A DNA stretch of 64,000 bases from Planctomycetota bacterium. GTDB taxonomy: Bacteria > Planctomycetota > UBA1135 > UBA2386. Below are positions 34,206 to 46,057 of this stretch, piece by piece; positions within the stretch are counted from its first letter, which is position 1, and the number at the start of each line of letters is the position of its first letter. The notes beneath the pieces are model-generated. The model searched no databases and was not told where the DNA came from. It saw only the letters and a list, made by a program, of their open reading frames with translations. The DNA lies in the NCBI GenBank assembly GCA_028281765.1, contig JANQJF010000071.1, positions 1-64,000 on the forward strand. Direction: 5' to 3'. The position numbers and the translations under genes are program-made.

Positions 34206-36644
34206 ATGGAGCCCAGTTCCCGCCACCCGTTCGTCGACTTCCTCGAGGACCGAGGATTGTTGCAAGTCACGCCGGACCAAGAGTTCGCGGCGGACACGGA
34301 CCTCGATTCGATCGTGGTCTCACTGGCCGAGCTCGGGGGGGACCGGGAAGAGCTCGAGGACGCACGCGACGAGTACATTCGCATTGCGACCGTGCTGACC
34401 GGCGGTCGTCCCGCGCCGAAGCCGGACGACGCGCGCATCGGTTGCGTCATCGGTTCGTACCGACTCGAAGCGAAGATCGGCAGCGGTGGACAGGGCTCGG
34501 TCTTCTTGGCCAAGCACGTCGAGCTCGGCAGCGACGTGGCGGTCAAGCTGCTGACCGATTGCACCAAGCGAGACGTCGCGCGCATGCGTCGCGAAGCGGG
34601 TGCACTCAGTCAGCTCAAGCATCCCAACGTCGTCGGCTTCTACGACTACGGTCAGTTCGAGACCGTGCAGTGGCTGGCGATGGAGTACGTCGACGGAGAG
34701 AGCGCGGGGCAACGCGTTTCGCGCGACGGGCCATTCGACGGCGAGCAGGTCGAGCGCATCCTCGACGACGTGCTGTCGGGCCTCGCCGCCGCGCACGGCA
34801 TCCACGAGAACTCGGTCCATCGCGACTTATCTTCGAACAACGTGCTGCTCGACCGGAGCGGTCGCGCACTGATCGCGGACTTCGGACTCGCGCGTGGCGT
34901 CGTCGGCAACGATCAGGTCACCCACAGCGTCGGCATGATCATGGGCACGCTTCCGTACATCGCGCCCGAAGTGTTCGACGGTCAACCTTCGACGCAGACG
35001 AGTGACCTGTGGTCGATCGGCGTGCTCGCGTTCGAGTTCTCGACCGGGAAGCCGCCGTTCCAAGGCGGGGCTCTCGAACTGATCAAGGCGGTCTGCGAAA
35101 CGGACCCGCCGTTCGAAACCCTGCCGAGCAAGAGTCTGCGGGTCCTCGCGGAAGCCTGCCTGCGCAAGGACCCGGAGGAACGCGTCGGGTCCGCGGCCGA
35201 AGCGCTCACGCTGCTCCGGCACGGGCGACCCCAGGCGGCCCCCACGAGCGTCGCGAGTCGCGTCGCCGGGACGCTGGTCGTCGCCGTGTTCGCGGCGTTC
35301 GTCTGGATGTTCGGGCCGTGGCACGAAACTGACGGCGCCGCGCCGCCAACTCCGACGACTCCGCCCGATCGAGGCGACGGACAGAGACCGAAGCCGGCCC
35401 CCGATCCGGAACGCGAGGCCGAACTCGCGCGACAGCGCCAGGCGCTCGAAGCCTGGAGCGAACTCGTCGCAAACGCACACCGCATGCTCGCGGCATTGCG
35501 TCCGCCGGATCAGGACGCGCTCCGGCAGCTGACGACCGACCTCTCGGCGACGACCCGGCCAGCGGACGGCGACGAAGCGCCAGAGGCCGACCTCGCGAAA
35601 CTCGACGCGCTCCTCCGCGCGCGCGCGAGCTGGCAGGCGATCGAAGGCAGCGGCGTCGATCGTGATTGGACGACCTGGCGACGGGCAATCGCCGACGCGT
35701 CCGGTCTCGGTTGCGTCGCCAGCGTGATGGAGGAATTCCGGCGCCTCGAGGCTCGCACGCTCGACGAGATGTTCCGCGCGTCGGGCACGGTGCGCGAAGC
35801 CACGGCCGTCGAATCCGAACTCCGCGCGACGGAAGCCGCCGCGCGCGCTCGTGGTCTCACGTTCGACGCGACGCTTCCCCTCGCGCAGGAAGCCGACGAC
35901 GCGCGACGGCTGACGGCCGTCCTCGCGATGCGCTTTCGCCCGTCAGAGCACCCGGAGTTGCCGACGCACGAACCGTATCTCCAGCGCGCGCAGCAGCACC
36001 TGACGACACTTCTGCCACCACCGTGGATCCCGTCCGGTTTCTCGTCTCCGACGCGGGAGTACCAAGCCGCCGGATCCGAGCGATCGCTCCCGCGCACGCT
36101 GGTCCACGACAAGTCCGGAATCCACCTCACGCTCGTCCCGATGGCCTCGGGCCACCTCTACGTGGGCACCACCGAAGTCACGGAGGCCGAGTTCTCCAAG
36201 GGCGGAGGCATGGCCGACTCGCAGCGAGCCGGATACCCCGTCACGGACGTCAGCTTCGACGCGGCGATCGCGTTCGCGCGCGCGAACGGCATGGACCTAC
36301 CCACGCTGCCCGAGTGGCGACGGGCGTGCCTCGGCTCCGATGCGAGTCGCGCCGAGTTCCACTGCCCGATTACGGACCTCGCCGAGTTCGCCGTTTTCGA
36401 TTCGGACGCCAAGCAGACCGTTCGGCGGCGCTCGCCCAACTCGCTCAACCTCTACGACATGCACGGCAACGTGCACGAGTGGGTCCAGCCAGAACCCGAC
36501 GAGAGTGCGGGCAACCAGCGTCGCTACGTCGGCGGCGCCTACAACAGCCCGGCCGACGACTGCTCGGTCGACGCGATGCACCGGCAGATGCGCGACTTCC
36601 GCGCGAAGACACTCGGATTCCGGGTGGTCGTCCGCGTCCCGTAG
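34206..36644 (+). CDS. Membrane Ser/Thr protein kinase with C-terminal FGE-sulfatase domain
   Basis: 812 residues. The N-terminal 75 residues are unassigned. The kinase (about 84-340) has the glycine loop IGSGGQGSVFLA, Lys114, Glu130, the catalytic loop HRDLSSNN (205-212) and DFG (225-227). The usual catalytic-loop lysine is Ser209, a position where tyrosine kinases have Ala. A membrane helix (VAGTLVVAVFAAFVWMFGPW) is near 350-370, then a helical linker. The last 180 residues are a formylglycine-generating-enzyme-like fold (VPMASGHLYVGTTEVTEAEF, NSLNLYDMHGNVHEWVQ, KTLGFRVVVR). The FGE part would lie outside the membrane and probably senses or binds rather than modifies sulfatases. Confidence 0.88.
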   Translation: MEPSSRHPFVDFLEDRGLLQVTPDQEFAADTDLDSIVVSLAELGGDREELEDARDEYIRIATVLTGGRPAPKPDDARIGCVIGSYRLEAKIGSGGQGSVFLAKHVELGSDVAVKLLTDCTKRDVARMRREAGALSQLKHPNVVGFYDYGQFETVQWLAMEYVDGESAGQRVSRDGPFDGEQVERILDDVLSGLAAAHGIHENSVHRDLSSNNVLLDRSGRALIADFGLARGVVGNDQVTHSVGMIMGTLPYIAPEVFDGQPSTQTSDLWSIGVLAFEFSTGKPPFQGGALELIKAVCETDPPFETLPSKSLRVLAEACLRKDPEERVGSAAEALTLLRHGRPQAAPTSVASRVAGTLVVAVFAAFVWMFGPWHETDGAAPPTPTTPPDRGDGQRPKPAPDPEREAELARQRQALEAWSELVANAHRMLAALRPPDQDALRQLTTDLSATTRPADGDEAPEADLAKLDALLRARASWQAIEGSGVDRDWTTWRRAIADASGLGCVASVMEEFRRLEARTLDEMFRASGTVREATAVESELRATEAAARARGLTFDATLPLAQEADDARRLTAVLAMRFRPSEHPELPTHEPYLQRAQQHLTTLLPPPWIPSGFSSPTREYQAAGSERSLPRTLVHDKSGIHLTLVPMASGHLYVGTTEVTEAEFSKGGGMADSQRAGYPVTDVSFDAAIAFARANGMDLPTLPEWRRACLGSDASRAEFHCPITDLAEFAVFDSDAKQTVRRRSPNSLNLYDMHGNVHEWVQPEPDESAGNQRRYVGGAYNSPADDCSVDAMHRQMRDFRAKTLGFRVVVRVP

Positions 36645-37540: not shown

Positions 37541-39418
37541 TCACTTGTCGCTCGTCGCCAGGATCCGCTCGACGGCCGCGAGGACGGTCTCCCGCGGCAG
37601 CGCGAGGGTCTCGACACGGCCGGCCCGCGCGATGTTGATCCCCACGGCCTTGCCGTCGAGGTCGACGATCGGACCGCCGCACTGGGACGGCAGGAGCACC
37701 GTGTCGTGCTGGATCACCGTGCCGAATCCCGCACGGACTTCGCTCAGTTCGCCCCAGACGCGCTCCTGGCGAGACGCCTCGGTCTGGAATCCGAGCTTCG
37801 CGGTGACGTCGAACTCCTCTTCGCCGCGGCGCACGCGAATCTTGATCTCGGTGCCGGCCGGGTGGGCGCGCAGCGCCGGCCGCAGGTCGTTGGCCTTCTC
37901 GAGCTTGGTGCCATTGATCGCGAGGAGGACGTCATCGGCCTCGAGGCCGGCGCGAGACGCGGCCGAGTCGTCGACCACTTCGTCGAGACGCGGCGGCGCC
38001 GACGATCGATCGATCCGCACTCCCAGGTAGCCGCGTGCGTGGGAGTACGGCGCGGAGCTGACGATGCCGACCGAAACCGGCAGGCCGTCGCCGTCGGGAC
38101 TCGCGAGCCAGGCCCCACGCGACGGAACGGAATCGGCCCACTCGATCGGCGCCAGATCCTTCGCGCCGACGCGCAGCAGCGCGAGGTCGTTGTCTTCATC
38201 GGAACCGACCCAGGTCGCGGCGACGTTACGCCCATCGATGTGGCAGAGAAGCCCCGTCTCTTCGAGTTCACTCGCCTTCGTGAGGACGAGGCCGTCCGCG
38301 CGCACGACGGTACCGAGGAGCACGCGATCGCCTTCGAGCATGATCGGAACCGTGCTCGCGTTCACTCGATCGACGACGCCACGAAACGCGCTGACCACGG
38401 CATCGTTCGCACGCATCTGTCGCAGGCGGCGCAGCTCGCGGTCGTTGCGCTCCATGACCGGTAAACCCGGGCGCAGCTCGACCGTGACTGTGACGTCCTT
38501 GCCATCGCGTCGGATCTCGAGTTCGACCGCGTCTTCGGCCTCCTTGATCAGGCGGGCCATCTCGCGCCGATGCTTCACGTCGGTGCCGTTGACGCTGAGG
38601 ATGATGTCCCCGGCCTGGACACCGTCGCGCTCGGCCGGCTTACCCGGCAGGACCTCGCGCACCTTGACGGCGCCCCTGTGCTTGCGGTCGTAGCGCGCAC
38701 CAAAGCGCACCGAACGCCCGCGCCTGTCCATGCTGCCGATGACCTCGCCCTTGTCGAGGGACTCCCACTCGCGGTGGAACGCGTCGATCGGCACGTGCAT
38801 GTTCTGCGCGAGGTTGTCGGCGATGCGGCTGTTGATGCCGATGACGTTGCCCTGCATGTCGAAGATCGGCCCGCCCGAGTCGCCGCCCTGCATCGTGCAG
38901 TCGGAGACGAGCCACCCGTTGCCTTCGGGGATGTGAAGGACACGGCCGAGTCGCGCCGGCGCCGAGCGTCCGATCTTCGCGCCGCTCGGATGCCCGAGCT
39001 GCAGACACCACTCGCCCTTCCGCAGCGACGTCGTCGTGCCCATCGGAACCGTCGGGAATTCGCCCTTCGACAGGATCTTGATCAGACCGGTGTCCGTGCC
39101 GTGATTCGCGCCGAGCGTCTCGCCCTCGATGACGCGACCGTCGTGCAGGGTCATCTCGATCTTCTGCCCGGCCGACACCGAAACGTGACCCGCGGTCAGC
39201 ACGTAGCCGTTCGGAATGACGACGCCACTCGCGCCCGGCAGCGAGACCGTCGCCGGCAGCACGCGCTCGATCAACTCCTGCACGTAGCCCTGCATCTCGC
39301 GGAGCTCGACGCGATTCGCCGGCTCCCCACCGGCGAGGATTTCGGTGAGTCGCGCTTCTTGAGTCGAGGCGGGGGCGGCCGCGACCAGAACGGTGAGGGC
39401 GAGTCCGATCTGTCTCAT
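37541..39418 (-). CDS. Trypsin-like protease with PDZ domains and a degenerate second protease half
   Basis: 625 residues with a signal peptide ending APASTQ. First half: a DegP-like chymotrypsin fold with His78 (LTAGHV), Asp109 (GTDTGL) and Ser181 (MQGGDSGGP), then a PDZ domain (VREVLPGKPAERDGVQAGDI then ILSVNG). Second half: a protease-like fold in which the His region reads LVLTKASEL, the Asp is kept (EDNDLALL), a PDZ is inserted (DDSAASRAGLEADDVLLAIN), and the Ser site is PSQCGGP with Cys for Ser. The second half should be inactive and may bind substrate or regulate. Periplasmic quality control is the likely role. Confidence 0.87.
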   Translation of the reverse strand: MRQIGLALTVLVAAAPASTQEARLTEILAGGEPANRVELREMQGYVQELIERVLPATVSLPGASGVVIPNGYVLTAGHVSVSAGQKIEMTLHDGRVIEGETLGANHGTDTGLIKILSKGEFPTVPMGTTTSLRKGEWCLQLGHPSGAKIGRSAPARLGRVLHIPEGNGWLVSDCTMQGGDSGGPIFDMQGNVIGINSRIADNLAQNMHVPIDAFHREWESLDKGEVIGSMDRRGRSVRFGARYDRKHRGAVKVREVLPGKPAERDGVQAGDIILSVNGTDVKHRREMARLIKEAEDAVELEIRRDGKDVTVTVELRPGLPVMERNDRELRRLRQMRANDAVVSAFRGVVDRVNASTVPIMLEGDRVLLGTVVRADGLVLTKASELEETGLLCHIDGRNVAATWVGSDEDNDLALLRVGAKDLAPIEWADSVPSRGAWLASPDGDGLPVSVGIVSSAPYSHARGYLGVRIDRSSAPPRLDEVVDDSAASRAGLEADDVLLAINGTKLEKANDLRPALRAHPAGTEIKIRVRRGEEEFDVTAKLGFQTEASRQERVWGELSEVRAGFGTVIQHDTVLLPSQCGGPIVDLDGKAVGINIARAGRVETLALPRETVLAAVERILATSDK

Positions 39419-39543: not shown

Positions 39544-42500
39544 CTACCGAAGCGTTACCCGAATCGTGCGTGCCGGCTTCAGATCACGGACCTGCAGCGT
39601 CTTCTCGGCGCGGAGTCCCGTCGTCGTTTCCGCGACGAACTTCCACGTGCCGAGCGGGATCTGAATCCGTCGCTCGTACGGACGGGGCAGCACGACCGCA
39701 CGTTCTTCGGTCAGGCTCCAGTACGCGCTGCCATCTCGCGGATCGATGACCTTCACCGTCAAGGAGCCGAGGTCACGGTCGTTCGGTAGCTCCATGAGGA
39801 AGTGGTGCATCGCCGCCGCGAGCAGCTTGACCTCGACGGCCGTCTCGACGCCGGACGTGACCTCGAACTCGTGACGAACCGTTCCGGCACCCTTGCCGCG
39901 AACCGTCAGCGAGTACTTGCCGGGCGACAGGTTGCTCCAGAACACTTCGTTGCCGAGCCCGACGTCTTCCGACACGTTCTGATACGAACCGGTCGGCGCC
40001 GCGCGGACGGTGGCCTCGATCGATCGCGTCGAGTCGTCGCGCAGTAAACGAACGCGTGCCGAACCCGCCGGCTCGGTCACGAGAGGATCCAGGTGTCGCT
40101 CTTCGCTCTCCGCGAGATCGAACCAATCGCCAATCGCGATCGCGATGTCACCGACGAGCGCGATCGGGCGGTACCGTCCAGGAGCGAGACGCTTGAACGT
40201 GAACTCGAGACCATCCTTCTGTGGCCCCATGCGCCAGAATCCCTTGTCGCTCTTGAGGATCATGCCCGGCGTCGCCTTCGGCGGCACGCGGCCACCCGCG
40301 TCGTCCAGGCGCACCTTGACGATCCCGTTCTCCTTCGACTTCACGACGTCGAAACTCGCGCGGAGATGCACGTCGCCACGATCCGGCCAGACGTTGCCCT
40401 TCTCGAGCGGATCCGCGTCTTTCGGCTTGTTCCACAGCTGCACGGACATCGTGTGCTGGACGTCCTCGACGTTGTAGAACGTGAAGCGTCCGTCCTTGTT
40501 CGCGTGCAGCACTTCCTGCTTGCCCGACTCGGTCTGCGTCAGGTTGACGAACACGTTGCCCATCGGCGAACCGTCGAGGTACGTGATGTAGCCCTGGATC
40601 ACGTGTCCCGGTTCGATCACCGGATCCCAGTCGATCGTCTCACCCGGCTTCGCATCGAGCAAAAGACGCGCGCGCATGATCGACTCCTGCCACTTGCGAC
40701 GCCCCCCGCGCGTCGCGTACGCGATCGTCGGACCGCCGCTGTGTTCGCGGAGTACGTATCGACCGTAGTCGTCCGCGATCGAGAACGGATGACCGATCGC
40801 CGTATCGAAGTCGAACTGACCCGCCTGCTGGAAGCTCTCGCGAATGCGCTCCGGGAACGCGCGCACGATCGCACCCGCGATCGGTTCGCCCTCTTCGTCG
40901 CGCACCGTGCCACGCAGAGTTACCGGCGCCTCGAGTCGAATGTCGAGCTCCGCCGGCGTCTCGACGACCAGGGTCTGCTCGCCATACCACACGGGGAAGC
41001 CCTTGCCGTACGCGGCGACCGGATGGTCCCCGGGCTTCACGCCGCGGAAGCGGTAAAATCCCTCGGCGTCCGTGCGCGTCGTCAGCGGCGTCCAGCTCTC
41101 CTTGACGCCGCCACCCGTACGCATCTCGAAGTGCCCCGGCGCGCGCCCGACGGCGACGAGTGCGCCGACAACGGGATCTCCGTCCGGTCCGAGCACGCGA
41201 CCCGACAGGACCGCCCCACGACCAGAGACGACGAGCCGAAGCTCGGTCGGCGACACTTCCTCGAGATCGACGAGCTGAGACGGCGCGAAGTGCTCGGCCA
41301 GCGCGCCGAGCGAGCACGACGGCTTCACGCCACGCACGGAGAAGCGACCGTCCTTCGCGCTCCGTGCGACGACGCGCCCGCCGATCCAATTCGTCCAGCC
41401 GTTCGTCAGCCAGATGCCGGCGTCGGCGATCGACTGCCCGTTGCTGTCGACGACGATGCCATCCACGTCGACGCCCTCGTCGAGCGTCACGTCGATCTCG
41501 GCCTGCTCGGCGGCCACGACCTCCGCCTTGCCTCGCGCACCGCGATCCGTGCGCGCCGAGTAGTGACCCGGCGCGAGTCCTCGGAACAGGGCCCGGCCAT
41601 CCTCGTCGGTGACCGAACGGCCCACGGGAATCCGCGGTGCGCCTTCGGTCGAAGTGATCAGATCGACGCCGACGTCGGGCGCACGCTCGTCGTCCGACCA
41701 CGAGACGACGACGACCAGAGACCCGGTCGAAGGGTCGTCGACCACGGGCGCGCCGGACGGTTTCGCCTGCACGTCCGTTCGTGAGACCGTGTCGGCTTCG
41801 GCGGCCGTGGTCGACGGTTGCGTATCGTGTTCGATCGCATCGAGCGACGCCGTCACGGGCGCGGGGGCAGCGCCTGGTGGTGGAGATTCGGAGTCGGGTC
41901 CACTCAGGAGGGCCGACACCCCCCAGACACCGAGGCCGACGAGGAGAACTGCAGCGAGGATGACGACGCGTCGCACGATCTCGATTCCTCCGAACACAGA
42001 GAATGTGGAACTCCCTCCCGCGATGGCGCCGGCAGCCGCAGCGAGTTCGCCCGGACCGACGGCGATCGCGAGGAGCGCCGCTTGCCAGCTGCGCCCTTCC
42101 CCATCGAAGTCCGCGGACAACTTGCCGCGCAACTCGACGAGCGCACGGCTCAACCGGGTCTTGACGGTCTTGACCGGCACGTCGAAACGCGCCGCGATCT
42201 CGCGCGGCGGCAGGTTCTCGAAGTAGCGCAGATAGACGGTCTCGCGATACGGCTCACGCAACGTACGCAGCGCGCGCGCCAGACTCTCGTGCGCTTCGAG
42301 CTTTTCGACGATCGAGTCGGTCGGCGGCGCGGGATCGGGTTGCGGCAGCGACGACTTGTGAACGTGCGTCGTCGCGTTGCGCCGAAACCTATCGATGACG
42401 CGTCGCCGCAGCGTCGTGACGAGCCAGGATCGCGACAGCACGCGCGGCGGCTTCTCGACCGCGGTCAAGAACACCGACTGGACGACATCGTCGCAGTCGG

Positions 42501-42585
42501 CCTCGTGCGCGAGCAGAGTGCGCGCAACCCGGCGCAAGGCCGCCGAGTGATCGGGCCAATCGGGGAGGTGGACGGTGGGGTCCAT
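39544..42585 (-). CDS. ECF sigma factor fused to a membrane helix and extracytoplasmic Ig-like repeats
   Basis: 1013 residues. Residues 20-70 are sigma region 2 (EADCDDVVQSVFLTAVEKPP and RSWLVTTLRRRVIDRFRR). Residues 100-155 are region 4 (LRTLREPYRETVYLRYFENL, PPREIAARFDVPVKTVKTRL). One membrane helix spans about 205-228. The remaining 780 residues would be outside the cytoplasm and contain several carboxypeptidase-regulatory-like (CarboxypepD_reg/CNA-B-like) domains, each with DGRxxFRGLxPGxY-type strands. This joins promoter recognition and an external module in one chain. Release by proteolysis would be needed to reach promoters freely. No separate anti-sigma gene lies next to it. Confidence 0.88.
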   Translation of the reverse strand: MDPTVHLPDWPDHSAALRRVARTLLAHEADCDDVVQSVFLTAVEKPPRVLSRSWLVTTLRRRVIDRFRRNATTHVHKSSLPQPDPAPPTDSIVEKLEAHESLARALRTLREPYRETVYLRYFENLPPREIAARFDVPVKTVKTRLSRALVELRGKLSADFDGEGRSWQAALLAIAVGPGELAAAAGAIAGGSSTFSVFGGIEIVRRVVILAAVLLVGLGVWGVSALLSGPDSESPPPGAAPAPVTASLDAIEHDTQPSTTAAEADTVSRTDVQAKPSGAPVVDDPSTGSLVVVVSWSDDERAPDVGVDLITSTEGAPRIPVGRSVTDEDGRALFRGLAPGHYSARTDRGARGKAEVVAAEQAEIDVTLDEGVDVDGIVVDSNGQSIADAGIWLTNGWTNWIGGRVVARSAKDGRFSVRGVKPSCSLGALAEHFAPSQLVDLEEVSPTELRLVVSGRGAVLSGRVLGPDGDPVVGALVAVGRAPGHFEMRTGGGVKESWTPLTTRTDAEGFYRFRGVKPGDHPVAAYGKGFPVWYGEQTLVVETPAELDIRLEAPVTLRGTVRDEEGEPIAGAIVRAFPERIRESFQQAGQFDFDTAIGHPFSIADDYGRYVLREHSGGPTIAYATRGGRRKWQESIMRARLLLDAKPGETIDWDPVIEPGHVIQGYITYLDGSPMGNVFVNLTQTESGKQEVLHANKDGRFTFYNVEDVQHTMSVQLWNKPKDADPLEKGNVWPDRGDVHLRASFDVVKSKENGIVKVRLDDAGGRVPPKATPGMILKSDKGFWRMGPQKDGLEFTFKRLAPGRYRPIALVGDIAIAIGDWFDLAESEERHLDPLVTEPAGSARVRLLRDDSTRSIEATVRAAPTGSYQNVSEDVGLGNEVFWSNLSPGKYSLTVRGKGAGTVRHEFEVTSGVETAVEVKLLAAAMHHFLMELPNDRDLGSLTVKVIDPRDGSAYWSLTEERAVVLPRPYERRIQIPLGTWKFVAETTTGLRAEKTLQVRDLKPARTIRVTLR

Positions 42586-45178: not shown

Positions 45179-46057
45179 ATGGCAGCGAAGAAGAAGAAGC
45201 AACAGCGGAAGCCGGCCGGCAAGAAGGCGGTCAAGAAGACCACCGGCAGCAAGGGCCGACGCGTCACGAAAAAGACGCCAGCCAAGAAGAAGGCGGCGAA
45301 GAAGGCTACGACCAAGAAGAAGTCGGTTCGCAAGCCGGCAACCAAGAAGAAGGTCGTCAAGAAGGCCCGAAAGAAGGTCAGCAAGAAGAAGCCCGCGTTC
45401 GGCTGGGGCGGCGCGCGCCCCGGAGCCGGCCGTCCGCCGAAGGGCGACAAGCCGATGGCGTCCCACGCGAAGAAGGGCGCACTCCCGAAGGGCTGCCCGC
45501 TGCTCGTGACGACGCCGCTCCGGCCGGGCCTCCCGAGCCTGCGGCGCACGCGCGAGTACGAGATCCTGCGGGAGCAGTTCGAGCTCGGCTGCGACCGGTT
45601 CGGGTTCCGCCTGTGCCACTACTCGGTCGGCAAGGACCACTACCACATGATTTGCGAGGCGCCGAATCGCAACGCGATGTCCCGCGGGCTGCAGGGCCTC
45701 ACGATTCGCATCGCGCGCGCGCTCAACCGACACTGGGGCCGCAAGGGCAAGGTGTTCTCGGACCACTACGACGAACGCAGCCTCGAGACCCCACAGGAGG
45801 TCCGCCAGGGCCTAGTGTTCGTCCTGAACAACGCGAAGCGACTCAAGTACCGCCCGGCGTCCAAGATCGACCTCTACTCGTCCGGCCCGTGGTTCGACGG
45901 CTGGAAGGGATCGGCCAAGGCGTCCGGCCACGAGGACTGGGAGCTGCCGATCGTGCAGCCGCGATTCGCACTGCTGAAATCGAGCTGGCGCCGCCTCGGC
46001 AAGATCTCGCCCACCGAGATCCAGCAGCCGCTGAAGCGCCGCAGCGCGTTCGACTAG
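45179..46057 (+). CDS. RAYT-like (Y1 transposase) protein with histone H1-like N-terminal tail
   Basis: 292 residues. Residues 1-75 are Lys/Ala/Thr-rich repeats (TKKTPAKKKAAKKATTKKKS) like histone H1 or bacterial HctB/AlgR3 tails, followed by GWGGARPGAGRPPKGDKP, an AT-hook-like basic-proline element. The rest is a Y1/REP-associated transposase domain with an HUH motif (DHYHMI) and MSRGLQGLTIRIARALNRHW then GRKGKVFSDHY. In the helix where relatives have the nicking tyrosine (xYxxxNPxxAG or RYVLxNAxKH) it reads LVFVLNNAKRL, Phe for Tyr. Catalysis may be lost and the protein kept as a DNA-binding factor. No flanking repeats prove mobility. Confidence 0.78.
   Translation: MAAKKKKQQRKPAGKKAVKKTTGSKGRRVTKKTPAKKKAAKKATTKKKSVRKPATKKKVVKKARKKVSKKKPAFGWGGARPGAGRPPKGDKPMASHAKKGALPKGCPLLVTTPLRPGLPSLRRTREYEILREQFELGCDRFGFRLCHYSVGKDHYHMICEAPNRNAMSRGLQGLTIRIARALNRHWGRKGKVFSDHYDERSLETPQEVRQGLVFVLNNAKRLKYRPASKIDLYSSGPWFDGWKGSAKASGHEDWELPIVQPRFALLKSSWRRLGKISPTEIQQPLKRRSAFD

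Follow-up and report, generated by a model that had tools for sequence, protein, structure and literature searches.

A family of predicted membrane-tethered ECF sigma factor-receptor fusions in Planctomycetota, with a candidate in-frame internal start before the membrane helix

Control of ECF sigma factors usually falls to an anti-sigma factor encoded as a protein of its own. A gene in the window (the whole analyzed stretch of 64,000 nucleotides, contig JANQJF010000071.1 of a Planctomycetota bacterium) appears to join a sigma factor, a membrane helix and a large extracytoplasmic part in one polypeptide, and this raises the question of how such a protein could connect the cell surface with promoters and what might temper it. 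The minus-strand ORF 39544-42585 was translated into 1013 aa from an ATG start, and codon-model gene calling picked the same start; the plus-strand frame at these positions was interrupted by stops. The protein, P0001, displayed the following layout:

39544..42585, minus strand: full-length sigma-TM-ectodomain coding sequence (P0001, 1013 aa; translation, Pfam, codon-model gene call)
42373..42549, minus strand: Sigma-70 region 2, residues 13-71 (PF04542, E 2.1e-9; AlphaFold2 helices 7-24, 28-44 and 52-79)
42130..42288, minus strand: Sigma-70 region 4, residues 100-152 (PF08281, Sigma70_r4_2, E 5.5e-14; AlphaFold2 helices 89-159)
41968..42105, minus strand: cytoplasmic linker of 46 residues (161-206), without anti-sigma or zinc-finger domain
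41911..41967, minus strand: single transmembrane helix, residues 207-225 (Kyte-Doolittle 2.49; AlphaFold2 helix 202-224)
41728..41910, minus strand: Pro/Asp/Glu-rich low-complexity extracytoplasmic stalk, residues 226-286 (sequence; pLDDT <50 at 221-283)
39547..41727, minus strand: ectodomain, residues 287-1013, made of beta-sandwich repeats of the CarboxypepD_reg/transthyretin-like type (PF13620, all-beta model, PDB fold matches)

The matches of P0001 to Sigma70_r2, Sigma70_r4_2 and CarboxypepD_reg all exceeded the curated Pfam cut-offs, the NCBIfam sigma70-ECF superfamily model scored 72.7 bits (cut-off 42.9), and residues 10-160 were matched by solved ECF sigma factors. By its predicted domains, P0001 is an ECF (group IV) sigma factor, with sigma2 and sigma4 and without sigma3 or region 1. 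The initial annotation had described regions 2 and 4 as intact, which is in agreement with these scores and with the retention of the sigma residues conserved among paralogues (D33, Q36, W54, L109, R114, I130, A131, R147 and R153). The check for lost residues was clean at these positions and less so at the end of region 2: at 61, 72-73 and 77, P0001 carries R, TT and K, respectively, where most paralogues have N, RR and E. Because of the location of these departures, -10 recognition by P0001 may be unusual.

In the AlphaFold2 model, built on an alignment of 14 sequences (mean pLDDT 72), the sigma helices ran to residue 159; a further helix at 202-224 was followed by a disordered stalk, and residues 288-1013 were all-beta. 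The claim that one helix joins the sigma part to about 780 extracytoplasmic residues was borne out by hydropathy (207-225), by this model (202-224) and by the charge bias of the family described below. The repeats had been called Ig-like; the beta-sandwich fold was confirmed, but CarboxypepD_reg or transthyretin-like beta-sandwich is the better label, according to six stretches of PF13620 (E 1.3e-40) and the all-beta model. Foldseek comparison with the PDB returned generic beta-sandwich chains such as pilins and macroglobulins at low TM-scores, therefore no ligand can be named.

Searches of the genome that carries the window gene (8.78 Mb in 129 contigs) gave more than 150 matches to P0001 and at least 150 matches to region 4. 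Loci with long frames were fetched and genes in them were called with a codon model, which yielded 72 distinct sigma-TM-ectodomain fusions of at least 500 residues, the window gene among them. Sigma70_r2 and Sigma70_r4_2 were each found in 51 of 53 scanned paralogues, and CarboxypepD_reg in 49/53. The linker between sigma part and helix had a median length of 38 residues, and the ectodomain a median of 657 aa and a maximum of 985. Summed over the 72 proteins, the flank before the helix held 131 K/R and 11 D/E, while the flank after it held 94 K/R and 396 D/E. By this strong positive-inside rule, the predicted orientation of the 72 fusions is N-in/C-out; the topology check on the window protein found one strong hydropathy helix.

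The family was present in 45 of 199 Planctomycetota genomes sampled across the phylum (E <= 1e-40), and genomes of the same family and of the same order carried dozens of such fusions apiece. Named relatives came from Planctomycetota metagenome-assembled genomes; with P0001 as the lone query, no relative was found in the genome-contig collection, and no segment of alignment A1 was conserved strongly enough to serve as a query. Among the groups listed in a 2022 review that sums up the ECF classification, none from planctomycetes has a membrane extension subject to proteolysis; the architecture may nevertheless have been mentioned earlier. Two family variants had reduced ectodomains: L251 997-1710 (+) carries a tiny extracytoplasmic tail (237 aa in all), and L254 1282-2421 (+) an ectodomain that is short and looks different (total length 379 aa), so that the sensor part is exchangeable. 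Some fusions formed divergent head-to-head pairs (L039 5553-10774; L028 6436-12578; L044 5621-11505), which suggests tandem duplication or shared promoters.

The statement that no separate anti-sigma gene lies nearby applied to the window gene and to all fusions of its genome, since zinc-finger (ZAS-like) anti-sigma genes were found beside 0/72 fusions. The HxxxCxxC motif was absent from all 72 fusion proteins, and there was no zinc-finger domain among the Pfam matches listed for the window protein and the 53 scanned paralogues. Recurring partners such as an anti-sigma factor, an HtrA or a kinase were rejected as well: no neighbour family did better than 13/72, and the best clusters consisted of other sigma-type genes, exported proteins and kinases.

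Fused ECF sigma factors are known from other bacteria. In Pseudomonas putida, regulated intramembrane proteolysis of IutY (ECF243) by Prc and RseP releases a sigma fragment of about 23 kDa (PMC5411451). Like IutY, the proteins described here combine a cytosolic ECF sigma domain, a single TM and an extracytoplasmic domain in one polypeptide. However, IutY (~374 aa) has the periplasmic domain of a cell-surface-signalling anti-sigma factor and works with the TonB-dependent receptor IutA, whereas the present family has a CarboxypepD_reg ectodomain (median as above), no partner gene, 72 copies and a conserved internal start. Pfam gave no FecR or STN match in P0001, and no TonB-receptor-type neighbour recurred beside the 72 fusions. 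Proteolytic release was also proposed for ECF52 / SCO4117 of Streptomyces coelicolor (PMC5826349, PMC8999054). ECF52, together with ECF48 and ECF53, shares the sigma-TM-extracytoplasmic fusion, its extracytoplasmic part being carbohydrate-binding. ECF52 has been described as exclusive to Actinobacteria. Its sigma part, like that of ECF48 and ECF53, is separated from the TM by an anti-sigma domain of zinc-finger type, a position occupied here by a linker of about 38 residues without the motif. As the defining anti-sigma parts of IutY and ECF52 are both absent, the window gene would work like them without being a member of either group.

A comparison with planctomycete ECF groups having C-terminal extensions had been proposed. 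The family resembles ECF57 and the WD40-extended ECFs, which are lineage-expanded sigma factors with long C-terminal extensions, but the extension of the WD40 type has been proposed to work through contacts with other proteins. The matches listed for P0001 included no WD40 domain, nor did the 25 families listed for the 53 scanned paralogues, and assignment to ECF57 was not supported among the matches listed.

The sigma part has been gained or lost as a module. In many genomes the closest relatives of P0001 residues ~204-1013 were standalone receptors of 806-832 aa, which lack sigma and have a short signal anchor at the N-terminus; three such copies were present in the own genome. Fused and standalone forms interleaved in a maximum-likelihood tree of the ectodomains, and the starred branches forced at least six gains or losses of sigma. 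Fused L137 (G014), for example, grouped with standalone L129 (G006) at a support of 100/100. Operons with split sigma and receptor genes were considered as a missing link and dropped, the fetched standalone receptors having no adjacent sigma gene. The short-frame sigma matches that were fetched turned out to be ordinary sigma factors, variants with a small ectodomain, or frames cut by a contig end or an apparent frameshift.

Just before the helix, where the standalone receptors start, the fused proteins usually had a methionine accompanied by lysines (MSTK, MKKT, MNAK). Such a methionine occurred in 47 of the 72 own genes (17.7 expected). In two further sets, chosen by a profile that includes the linker so that their methionine counts may be inflated, it occurred in 47/61 genes of nine other genomes (against 18%) and in 21/29 genes of other families in the phylum (6.5 expected). 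The nucleotide-level tests weigh most because the protein profile cannot bias them. In these, the protein was kept fixed and codons were resampled synonymously, and a Shine-Dalgarno (SD) element was defined as GGAG, GAGG or AGGA located 9-15 nt upstream of ATG or GTG. The combination was found in 23/72 own genes (null 5.3, maximum 14 of 1000), in 18/61 genes of the nine other genomes (null 5.3, maximum 11) and, most strongly, in 21/29 genes of the other families (null 4.2, maximum 11). The site is not universal, as 49 of the 72 own genes lack SD plus ATG/GTG and 25 lack the methionine.

The site had further features. GGA made up 23/33, 17/35 and 22/25 of the glycine codons just upstream in the three sets, compared with 14-17% in the same genes. 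Messenger RNA folding at the site was weaker than in synonymous shuffles (z +1.64, +1.16 and +1.40), while controls gave -0.15 for ectodomain methionine codons and -0.25 for the pre-helix region of other single-TM proteins. The SD-to-ATG spacing peaked at 12 nt, a value within the peak seen for called gene starts (9-12 nt). Conserved residues elsewhere mostly showed background codon usage, therefore synonymous sites are near saturation and the codons at the start site are not simply inherited. The simplest reading at the family level is that the pre-helix SD and start codon are under selection for translation initiation. The new element is an in-frame ATG or GTG that most family members retain before the helix, often together with an SD at the spacing of start sites. 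Programmed frameshifting stimulated by the SD was dropped as an explanation because the codons after the ATG are not consistently slippery and GTG may replace ATG.

In the window gene, the candidate elements and the product that they would give are:

41986..41991, minus strand: SD-like GGAGGA upstream of an in-frame GTG (sequence; family enrichment over synonymous nulls)
41974..41976, minus strand: candidate start GTG, codon 204, giving VRRVVILAAVLLVGLGVW... (homologous fused proteins carry ATG at the junction)
39544..41976, minus strand: predicted second product, a sigma-less TM-ectodomain of 810 aa (inferred; layout as in standalone homologues in relatives)

The GTG is followed by two arginines and then by the helix. 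The SD spacing is longish and the folding z is just +0.65, so that the internal start in this particular gene is only moderately convincing and draws mainly on the family.

Production of a full-length and an N-terminally truncated protein from one gene through an in-frame internal start is known from the Tn5 transposase and its inhibitor and from the long and short forms of CheA. In the present case it is a sigma factor that the shorter form would lack, and conservation of the site extends over a multigene family and to several families of the phylum.

Taken together, we consider it fairly probable that these proteins form a family of tethered-sigma receptors acting as one-protein transducers from the surface to promoters, with two products, release and tempering as conjectural elements. 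The initial annotation had suggested a one-protein transducer, perhaps released by proteolysis. The one-protein transducer draws support from the anatomy (an intact sigma part, an N-in/C-out helix, a large ectodomain and no ZAS motif in the protein or its neighbours) and from conservation that extends from the order to the phylum. Each gene would give two proteins, the full-length tethered sigma factor and, from the internal start, a sigma-less membrane-anchored receptor equivalent to the standalone homologues. The ectodomain would sense a ligand or the state of the envelope and trigger cleavage, at site 1 and then at site 2 by an RseP-like protease, which would free residues 1 to ~200. The freed part would bind core RNA polymerase and direct transcription. 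Through competition for ligand or through inactive complexes, the sigma-less form could determine the threshold of the response; alternatively, it could allow the ectodomain a surface job of its own. That each gene encodes both forms by design, with the sigma-less receptor tuning or antagonising the tethered one, we hold to be slightly better than an even chance.

Release by intramembrane proteolysis is plausible by analogy with IutY and SCO4117 and because an RseP-like M50 protease with PDZ domains is encoded in the own genome (G000:C74). For site 1, a gene separated from the sigma gene by a short gap may be considered:

37541..39418, minus strand: HtrA-like exported protein with trypsin-like and PDZ domains (PF13365 and PDZ; ~125-bp gap downstream of the sigma gene)

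Two of its domains are trypsin-like and two are of the PDZ type. On visual inspection, the His/Asp/Ser motifs are retained in the first protease domain, and the second appears to have degenerated, with SQCGGP in place of GDSGGP. It is a possible site-1 protease; the gene does not recur beside the 72 fusions.

The sigma part might also act without being cut free, either by working while membrane-bound, in the manner of ToxR or CadC, or by keeping polymerase close to the membrane. A short linker and a complete sigma unit would suit such a mode, and ECF sigma factors of Tuwongella were recovered in detergent-soluble fractions (PMC8567305). However, IutY, the sole experimentally characterised fused ECF activated by proteolysis, needs Prc and RseP (PMC8999054, PMC5411451), and the own genome encodes a site-2 protease; we regard action without release as distinctly unlikely. 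The pre-helix signal has also been weighed as a translational pause that aids membrane targeting of the full-length protein, since SD-like pauses are enriched near the targeting regions of Escherichia coli membrane proteins. Against this reading, these pauses were reported at codons 16-60 or before TM2 (PMC4359368), and pausing requires neither Met nor GTG. In addition, SD-to-ATG distances were tighter than SD-to-helix distances (sd 3.5 versus 7.2 nt), and other single-TM proteins of these genomes showed no Met, SD or folding signal before their helix. The latter control set ruled out pausing as the main cause, and as an account of the element it is very improbable.

A relic of gene fusion deserves more weight, although it too is unlikely. 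Each gene would then give a single product, released by regulated intramembrane proteolysis, and the pre-helix ATG and SD would be remnants of repeated fusions at the start codons of standalone receptors. Fusions at this junction did happen, as indicated by the homologous position of the standalone starts and the repeated gain or loss of sigma. Against a relic, the GGA codons and the low folding have been retained although synonymous sites are near saturation, and the signal is strongest in the other families of the phylum. Moreover, the site is kept in old pairs of fused orthologues; among them L077 and L168, at 48% identity, have it as GTG plus SD and ATG plus SD, respectively, so that start and SD were maintained between fused genes through a GTG/ATG exchange.

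If the tethered-receptor reading with two products holds, the ~72 paralogues would constitute the dominant envelope-to-transcription system of their genome, and with no recurring partner much of its surface sensing would run through single proteins. The conserved internal start offers a testable idea of how a system without anti-sigma factor could be tempered, and throughout a phylum with few cultured members, dozens of genes in a genome would each encode a further protein that annotation conceals.

ECF sigma factors commonly recognize promoters with an AAC-type -35 and a CGT-type -10, usually including that of their own gene. A shared two-block (autoregulatory) promoter motif was not found upstream of the 72 fusions. 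TGAACC occurred upstream of 13/72 fusions and 24/641 controls, at no fixed position and with no -10 partner. An octamer like GAGAATCT was enriched upstream of fusions (6/72 versus 2/641), mostly 35-75 nt before the start.

The region upstream of the sigma gene (42886-63887, mostly minus strand) contains a gene run of surface-polysaccharide type, including a Gfo/Idh oxidoreductase, a DegT aminotransferase, a hexapeptide transferase, a glycosyltransferase, two asparagine synthases, a UDP-GlcNAc 2-epimerase and an NAD-dependent epimerase. Within it, 45179-46057 (+) encodes a transposase-like protein of the IS200/Y1 type, whose long N-terminal tail is rich in lysine and alanine and resembles histone H1; similar Y1-type genes occur near three other sigma fusions. 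On the other side, 34206-36644 (+) encodes a serine/threonine kinase with a single TM and, outside the membrane, a fused domain of FGE-sulfatase-like type.
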